From the NCBI RefSeq assembly GCF_000299395.1, contig NC_018656.1, positions 682,001 through 746,000 of the forward strand: a stretch of 64,000 bases of DNA, written 5' to 3'. Positions 19,348 through 20,950 of the stretch are shown in pieces. Positions within the stretch are counted from its first letter, which is position 1. Every line of letters starts with the position of its first letter. The notes beneath the pieces were generated by a model. That model did not search any database and was not told the origin of the DNA. It worked only from the letters and a program-made list of their open reading frames with translations. The translations under genes and the position numbers were made by a program. This DNA comes from Candidatus Nitrosopumilus sediminis. Lineage in GTDB: Archaea > Thermoproteota > Nitrososphaeria > Nitrososphaerales > Nitrosopumilaceae.

Positions 19348-19488
19348 TCAAATTGCTTTTTTAAGCAAGTCATTAATTGCCCGTGAATAACTATGTGACG
19401 AATTCTCTTTTTTCATGACTTTTGCCTGATATGCTCTGATTCTCTTATCTAACTCATCATCGACCATGATTGTTATTCTCCTTGCCAT
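19348..19488 (-). CDS. Ribbon-helix-helix protein
   Basis: 46 residues. ARRITIMVDDELDKRIRAYQAKVMKKE followed by SYSRAINDLLKKAI is a complete CopG/Arc-type ribbon-helix-helix fold: an N-terminal strand, a first helix, and a second helix beginning at the conserved Ser. It should bind DNA as a dimer. Small RHH proteins are often antitoxins or autoregulators, but no partner gene is adjacent. Confidence 0.65.
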   Translation of the reverse strand: MARRITIMVDDELDKRIRAYQAKVMKKENSSHSYSRAINDLLKKAI

Positions 19489-19631: not shown

Positions 19632-19640
19632 TTTTAAATA
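19632..19640 (+). promoter_or_regulatory. TATA box of the candidate structured RNA
   Basis: TTTTAAATA at 19632-19640 is a good archaeal TATA element. Initiation about 25 bp later falls near 19662-19666, shortly before the structured region. No start codon with a convincing frame follows, which favours a non-coding transcript. Confidence 0.45.
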
Positions 19641-19664
19641 GTTATTTGTCTTATACATAGTGAT

Positions 19665-19795
19665 GTCGTTAGTTGTAAAATCTGGCGATTAGATTGCGCT
19701 GCCCCGCAGAACAAAAAAGGCAATCAAATGTTTAGACGTTTGACCACGAGAGGGAATCTCTCAAAGTTCTGCAGTTAGGGGTATGCGCCTTTACA
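19665..19795 (+). ncRNA. Candidate structured RNA with three-way junction
   Basis: A nearly continuous 17-bp stem is visible: 19696-19699 pairs with 19785-19788 (GCGC/GCGC), 19700-19705 with 19778-19783, and 19706-19712 with 19766-19772 (GCAGAAC/GTTCTGC), interrupted only by a 1-nt and a 5-nt bulge. The enclosed region holds two hairpins: 19724-19730 with 19737-19743 (7 bp) and 19748-19752 with 19758-19762 (GAGAG/CTCTC). This makes a Y-shaped RNA. No tRNA, SRP, RNase P or clear C/D-box signature is present. GC-rich stems in AT-rich DNA are typical of functional RNA. The exact ends are estimates. Confidence 0.6.
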
Positions 19796-19858
19796 TTTTC
19801 TTGAATAATTCTTCATCTCGATTAAAAAATGATGTTATTGTTTTAGATTCTTAAATTA

Positions 19859-20950
19859 CTATGTCACAATTTCATCTAAACGCCCTTCTTCTTGAGCACG
19901 TTTTATTTCCATTGCAATTCTTCTACCTACCCCAAACGTTTGTCCATACTGATATTTTGTATAAGGACTAGTTGTTGCAACAATAGGATTTCCTGGTACT
20001 CTTAACGATACATCATACACAACAAGTTCCAAATCTTTTGTTATTACACTTTGCAATGAAAATGGGCCAATGATTCCTGGGGTGTATTCTTTCTTTACTG
20101 CAGCTACAAATTTGTCACCCATTTTAAGCACCTTTTCAAGCAATGATTCTCTGATGCTTGCAGGAGTATGTCCTACTTCGATGTTTTGTAAATCAATATC
20201 CATCTCCAACTGTTCTTTTGCTGGGAGGGCATTGTAATCATGAATGTTGGTTTGTAACCTTCGCTCAATTCCAATAAAATCTACTTGGTCTGAAATTGGA
20301 GTATGGAAGAAATTAAAATTCATATATGTCCCTATCGCCAACTCTTCAATACTTGCATTTTGAAGATCTTTTCTTGCAATAACTCCTTGCTTAATTTTTG
20401 TTTCTGATTTTTTGATATAATCTTTGTAAGATGAAACAGTGAAGAATGCTCTTTCTAATGGTCTCTTTTTTTCTTGAACTTTAACAATACATGGTTTATT
20501 GATTCGTTTAGGATCTTTGAATAATTTTGGATATTTTATTCTGGCTTTTTCCAATAGGTAGTATTGTCCTTTTTTTGCTGTTCTTTCTTCTGCTTGAAAC
20601 AGTTTCCTGTTTCCAAAAATTGGCACTTTGAATGAGTTTTCAATTGTTTTGTATCCCAGATAGACTGTAAGTGATCTATGCGGAACTATGATTGTGTTTG
20701 AATCTCTTAATTCTTTTTGATATTTCGATGATGCCATGTCTTTGAATTTATCTAATACTGTGATTTCATCTGCTATTCTTCCGAATCTTTTGTATGGTCC
20801 TTCACGTCCTTTTTGACAAAAAACCCTAGTCTGAAAATCTTCATCTTTTGCCCCATCCATTATTTCTAATGCTGAGTGACTACCAAGAACTCCGATCTTG
20901 ACATCTATGTAGTCATTAACAATTTTTTTGATTTCAGAACTTTTAATCAC
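19859..20950 (-). CDS. purP: Formate-dependent AICAR formyltransferase (FAICAR synthetase)
   Basis: 363 residues matching PurP, the archaeal ATP-grasp-like ligase that uses ATP and formate to make FAICAR from AICAR, replacing the transformylase half of PurH. Visible features include the N-terminal VKIGVLGSHSALEIMDGAKDEDFQT and ATP-grasp portions IGPFSLQSVITKDLELVVYDVSLRVPGNP. Archaea carry several PurP-like paralogs, so the exact activity is an inference supported by four other purine genes in the window. It is transcribed away from the candidate RNA upstream on the other strand. Confidence 0.85.
   Translation of the reverse strand: MIKSSEIKKIVNDYIDVKIGVLGSHSALEIMDGAKDEDFQTRVFCQKGREGPYKRFGRIADEITVLDKFKDMASSKYQKELRDSNTIIVPHRSLTVYLGYKTIENSFKVPIFGNRKLFQAEERTAKKGQYYLLEKARIKYPKLFKDPKRINKPCIVKVQEKKRPLERAFFTVSSYKDYIKKSETKIKQGVIARKDLQNASIEELAIGTYMNFNFFHTPISDQVDFIGIERRLQTNIHDYNALPAKEQLEMDIDLQNIEVGHTPASIRESLLEKVLKMGDKFVAAVKKEYTPGIIGPFSLQSVITKDLELVVYDVSLRVPGNPIVATTSPYTKYQYGQTFGVGRRIAMEIKRAQEEGRLDEIVT

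Follow-up and report, generated by a model that had tools for sequence, protein, structure and literature searches.

A structured non-coding RNA gene family of the Nitrosopumilaceae with a putative shared protein-binding core and type-specific 5' hairpins

The window, i.e., the whole stretch of 64,000 nucleotides analysed here (Candidatus Nitrosopumilus sediminis, NC_018656.1, positions 682,001 to 746,000), carries between a TATA-like box and a convergent purP-like gene an interval assigned to a non-coding RNA (ncRNA) gene. The coordinates of all features are collected in Table 1. A preliminary description had placed a structured RNA at 19632-19795, behind a TATA box and in DNA without a coding frame. 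The box was indeed present, and the ORF list of the window held no coding frame of the interval's own. The proposed span was kept for 19662-19795, while its first part, 19632-19661, turned out to be promoter and not RNA. The conserved RNA start, GAUG, lies at 19662, 28 nt past the TATA-like box TTAAATAG. The 5' end of the gene is a prediction from the TATA spacing and the conserved RAUG, and the 3' end was set by the final conserved position, a C at 19789, and the start of the U-rich tail, the predicted RNA being approximately 134 nt long. Covariance model R2 matched 19662-19794 with 123.7 bits, and this was the sole R2 match within the window. A naive scan of 124 copies located a TTAAATA-like box 27-28 nt ahead of the model start in 80 of them, i.e., a promoter of its own at fixed spacing, as expected of a structured ncRNA gene. 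The 3' tail was U-rich or AU-rich for most of the copies listed; in the window copy it is probably an archaeal termination region, where transcription would end. In the alignment of relatives G-U cells outnumbered A-C cells (123 versus 53), which places the RNA on the plus strand, the same strand as the promoter. On the upstream side of the gene lies a 46-aa ORF, ribbon-helix-helix-like by eye and with no Pfam match, homologues of which precede the type I copy by approximately 170-190 nt in about ten loci of Nitrosopumilus.

Table 1. Features of the RNA gene, its structural parts, its neighbours and its paralogous copies. Positions are those of the window unless a contig or locus is named.
Feature	Position	Strand	Basis or remark
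46-aa ORF, upstream side of RNA	19348-19488	-	window
TATA-like box TTAAATAG	19634-19641	+	own promoter of the RNA; read directly from sequence
RNA gene, type I copy	19662-19795	+	covariance model R2
P1, 5' hairpin	19665-19689 (19665-19672 with 19682-19689)	+	two-sided changes at 8/8 pairs; 79% of cells paired
P2 5' arm GCGCUGCCCC	19696-19705, pairs with 19778-19788	+	97% of cells paired; two-sided changes at 8/10 pairs
P3 5' arm GCAGAAC	19706-19712, pairs with 19766-19772	+	96.6% of cells paired; two-sided changes at 7/7 pairs
A-rich joining strand, three-way junction	19713-19723	+	alignment A2; mostly <78% conserved across genera
P4, variable covarying hairpin	19724-19743 (19724-19731 with 19736-19743)	+	two-sided changes at 8/8 modelled pairs
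P5 hairpin, GGAAU loop at 19753-19757	19748-19762	+	96% of cells paired
P3 3' arm GUUCUGC	19766-19772	+	covariation, fold
One-sided bulge AGUUA between P3 and P2	19773-19777	+	fold; varies among relatives
P2 3' arm GGGGUAUGCGC	19778-19788	+	covariation, fold
U-rich tail	19790-19804	+	sequence
Convergent purP-like gene (DUF1246 + DUF1297)	19859-20950	-	Pfam; fixed downstream neighbour of type I
Type II copy	G000:C1:1645717-1645850 (L043 3218-3351)	+	between SDR gene and small predicted-secreted protein gene
149-aa predicted-secreted protein gene	L043 3349-3798	-	no Pfam match
Type III copy	G000:C1:462302-462425 (L139 2803-2926)	+	between aroC and aroA; diverged paralogue

The interval 19662-19795 folds at -46.5 kcal/mol with a z-score of -4.4, and none of 200 shuffled sequences folded equally well; for the 164-nt interval of the preliminary description the values were -47.9 kcal/mol and -3.5, with one of 200 shuffles equally good. 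The computed fold consists of the 5' hairpin P1, a 17-bp stem P2+P3 with a 5-nt bulge in its 3' strand, and a three-way junction from which P4 and P5 extend. The bulged 17-bp stem with two inner hairpins of the preliminary description was recovered exactly, but that description had overlooked the conserved 5' hairpin. The loop GNAAU is the family loop of P5, seen in 78 of the 92 copies where a P5 loop was found, and over 60 copies its G and U were invariant or nearly so, whereas the joining strands drift. An additional pairing of AAAGGC with GCCUUU, between the junction strand and the tail, was considered and rejected, as it is broken in several copies.

The fold was then compared with the substitutions among relatives in two sets of sequences. 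In 34 copies from one genus, aligned by sequence only and independently of the model, 94% of the cells pair and ten pairs show two-sided changes, the covariation score being higher than that of all 500 shuffles and of all slid versions. In 60 diverse copies 91.3% of the cells were paired, and two-sided compensatory changes were present in 35 of the 38 pairs, with 314 compensating cells versus 71 expected from shuffles and a covariation score of 0.414 versus 0.181 (shuffled) and 0.056-0.076 (slid). Because the 60-copy alignment (A4) was made by fitting to the model, it is biased towards the model's pairs; the slides and shuffles nevertheless scored far lower. The stem arms thus do not drift uncompensated, a point which the preliminary description had singled out for checking, and compensation exceeds the controls as expected of a structured ncRNA gene. 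The first MAFFT alignment had register slips at the 3' arm of the outer stem, which RNAalifold consequently did not recover, and the structure was therefore named by hand and then counted. We regard it as almost certain that the structured ncRNA gene is real.

There are three paralogous copy types, each with a fixed genomic location. In genome G129, for example, the three copies were located at C1:690170-690302, C1:22397-22532 and C1:488159-488282, all on the plus strand. Type I is followed by the purP-like gene; about 15 loci have a homologue of this gene within 39-109 nt of the RNA end, and in five more it is farther away. At the type II locus the SDR gene is divergent and the secreted-protein gene convergent, with a TFB gene next in several loci, and the stop codon of the secreted-protein gene usually lies 1-35 nt from the 3' end of the RNA. 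This layout, or the secreted-protein half of it, recurs in many genera, several of them single-copy, and for this reason the type II locus appears to be the ancestral one. Even at 76% G+C, as measured at the site in one genome (G318), a recognisable RNA with 14.7 bits stands directly behind the secreted-protein gene. That gene was not found outside family f1 in 21 genomes from the other families of the order and two more of the phylum. Type III has an 11-bp P2 and very conserved P4 and P5 hairpins of its own, and retains the A-rich junction start CGAAAAAG; in another genus it adjoins a Sir2-like gene.

The closeness of the RNA end to the stop codon in most type II loci is what would be seen if the RNA were a cis element of the convergent gene, i.e., a 3' UTR, terminator or antisense of the purP-like gene in type I and of the secreted-protein gene in type II. 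We consider this very improbable, since the three types have three unrelated convergent neighbours, the RNA has its own promoter at fixed spacing, the G-U bias puts it on the strand opposite to the convergent genes, and in one genus it stands at the SDR/TFB locus without an adjoining secreted-protein gene. The occurrence of several copies per genome would also suit a small element, mobile or repeated, that serves the host in no way, but the fixed synteny speaks against this: copies occupy the same places across genera, with promoter and covariation kept. The RNA had no match in viral contigs either, and of all readings we give this one the least credence.

The family was widespread within a narrow taxonomic range. 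By blastn, matches were obtained in 34 of 61 related genomes, all of one genus and usually twice per genome. With covariance model R1, 121 of the 300 genomes searched in the order were positive, spread over 17 genera of the single family f1, which is taken to be the Nitrosopumilaceae. Model R2, built from 60 diverse copies, had matches in 210 of the 400 genomes searched within the order and in 44 of the 300 sampled from the whole phylum, again in f1 only; among the 256 genomes of the phylum sample without a match, of which the nearest kin are listed, none was listed as f1. With lax filters nothing convincing was found outside f1 in forty genomes searched. For f1 genomes at least 90% complete the RNA was present in 127 of 131, with 1-4 copies each. 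As to the four f1 genomes negative with R2, one (G289) has the RNA under laxer filters, in a second (G260) the contig stops at the neighbouring gene, and the remaining two are 0.8 Mb in size. The RNA was not found in G264, G276 and G338 (genus g35, 0.8 Mb), and the secreted-protein gene was likewise absent from G264 and G276.

With regard to known RNA classes, Rfam 15 at the gathering score returned only a tRNA in the whole window and nothing on the RNA, and at E-values up to 10 there was no credible match for the window copy or for 12 diverged loci. The archaeal SRP RNA (RF01857) and RNase P RNA (RF00373) models gave no match to the RNA; these genes lie elsewhere in the genome, at G000:C1:47655-47966 and G000:C1:536121-536399, respectively. 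No tRNA was found at the RNA. Of the C/D box sRNA signatures, the C box RUGAUGA expected towards the 5' end occurred in 0 of 98 copies and the D box CUGA expected towards the 3' end in 3 of 98, both together in none. For H/ACA sRNA, an ANA within the last 8 nt was present in just 5 of 98 copies, and the one-sided bulge and three-way junction do not fit this class either. The genome contains no Ro60/TROVE gene and gave no PF05731 match, which speaks against a Y RNA. The size and structure of the RNA and its few copies per genome are of the general order known from such RNAs, and a far-diverged relative from one of the known classes (C/D or H/ACA guide, SRP, RNase P, 6S or Y RNA) may be imagined; given the searches above, including the inconsistent 3' ANA, we find it improbable. 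The absence of SRP, RNase P, tRNA and C/D signatures noted in the preliminary description was thereby borne out, and its suggestion of an unnamed thaumarchaeal small RNA is supported in view of covariation, the fixed promoter, the family-wide presence in 1-4 copies and the lack of an Rfam match. No description of the RNA was encountered in open-licence literature; an earlier mention in subscription papers is possible. With respect to Rfam and the open-licence literature searched, the RNA family is new, with the reservation that what it does may turn out to be familiar from other RNAs.

The two halves of the RNA evolve differently. The comparison of types I and II within and between genomes was done on the 16 genomes having both. 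In the 3' domain (P2-P5) the likeness of the two types was 0.803 within a genome versus 0.774 between genomes (permutation p 0.0001), reaching 0.96 in single genomes, with the limit that this signal of concerted evolution rests on about five of the sixteen. The 5' hairpin P1 gave 0.596 within versus 0.597 between genomes (p 0.6) and is type-specific, with identities of 0.86 (I-I) and 0.85 (II-II) versus 60% between types. In the pairs L016/L035, L022/L031, L020/L033, L013/L045 and L017/L034 the type I and type II paralogues, each pair from one genome, have almost the same 3' domain, a likeness that does not extend to the 5' hairpin. The simplest reading is that gene conversion keeps the core uniform, while P1 sets the copies apart.

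Taken as a whole, the locus is best explained, with a probability of roughly 0.6, as a standalone ncRNA gene with a TATA promoter, one of three paralogous types that combine a shared, putatively protein-binding core with a type-specific 5' hairpin. The promoter would drive the RNA of about 134 nt, which would act in trans by its shape. The junction core of the 3' domain, which is kept uniform within genomes, may bind a protein partner common to all copies, with P5 and the junction as the likely contact, and P1 may supply a second contact particular to each copy. The net role would be that of a regulatory or scaffold RNP RNA. The poor conservation of the joiners together with the near-invariant P5 loop speaks for shape recognition rather than an antisense seed.

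The main rival is base pairing through P1. Here the RNA would be a trans-acting sRNA, its core a module for stability or chaperone binding, and the P1 loop and the junction strand would pair with mRNAs. The strong conservation of P1 within but not between types is compatible with this, and the common core could also be a stability element with P1 doing the pairing. However, the genome holds no long antisense match, the complement of the P1 loop gave 13 near-matches versus 14 for a reversed control pattern, and the unpaired joiners drift between genera. We therefore hold base pairing to be unlikely, yet the alternative most worth keeping in mind. That the RNA works mainly via a protein bound to its core is a tentative proposal, to which we would give somewhat less than even odds.

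The Nitrosopumilaceae belong to the most abundant marine cells and account for much of the ammonia oxidation in the ocean. The RNA is near-universal among them, occupies fixed positions with as many as four copies per genome and shows strong covariation, and it very probably belongs to their core biology. It could, with a chance somewhat below even, represent a new archaeal class of RNP RNA that is essential or nearly so in this family, its core binding protein and staying almost identical among paralogues through gene conversion, and its distinct 5' hairpins serving separate tasks. The alignments and covariance models allow a transcript search in existing RNA-seq data and fishing for protein partners, and the evolution in two modules gives a testable prediction on which half binds what.

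Several described RNAs may be set beside this family. Bacterial 6S and CsrB-type RNAs are standalone and act through a bound protein, with shape conserved above sequence; 6S forms a single long hairpin opened by a bubble, and CsrB a series of GGA hairpins. Both architectures are unlike the bulged stem and three-way junction found here, and there is no Rfam match to them. The archaeal SRP RNA (RF01857) and RNase P RNA (RF00373) are likewise structured archaeal RNAs with their own genes, but differ in sequence and fold. Tan1, an abundant ncRNA of function unknown from Thalassoarchaea (marine group II Euryarchaeota), is similarly a lineage-specific structured ncRNA of marine archaea with no Rfam family, but it is 229 nt long, belongs to another phylum and was found by metatranscriptomics, the likeness being one of description (PMC5069720). 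Yfr103 of picocyanobacteria is also a structured ncRNA that occurs as several paralogues in a marine lineage of high abundance; it differs in being bacterial, 290-328 nt long, with seven paralogues and expression shown, and is again likened by description (PMC5069720).

Records with exact matches to the core came from Nitrosopumilus, Nitrosarchaeum and related archaea, on which the assignment of f1 to the Nitrosopumilaceae rests. Matches to the 20-mer core in Pseudomonas and Parvularcula were dismissed as chance, the loci being without a model match. A contig from a Hyphomicrobiales MAG does carry the RNA (L219, 5739-6063). There, the reading frame of an HlyD-like ORF continues directly into the last part of the archaeal secreted-protein gene, behind which the RNA is located, and the contig is probably a chimeric assembly.
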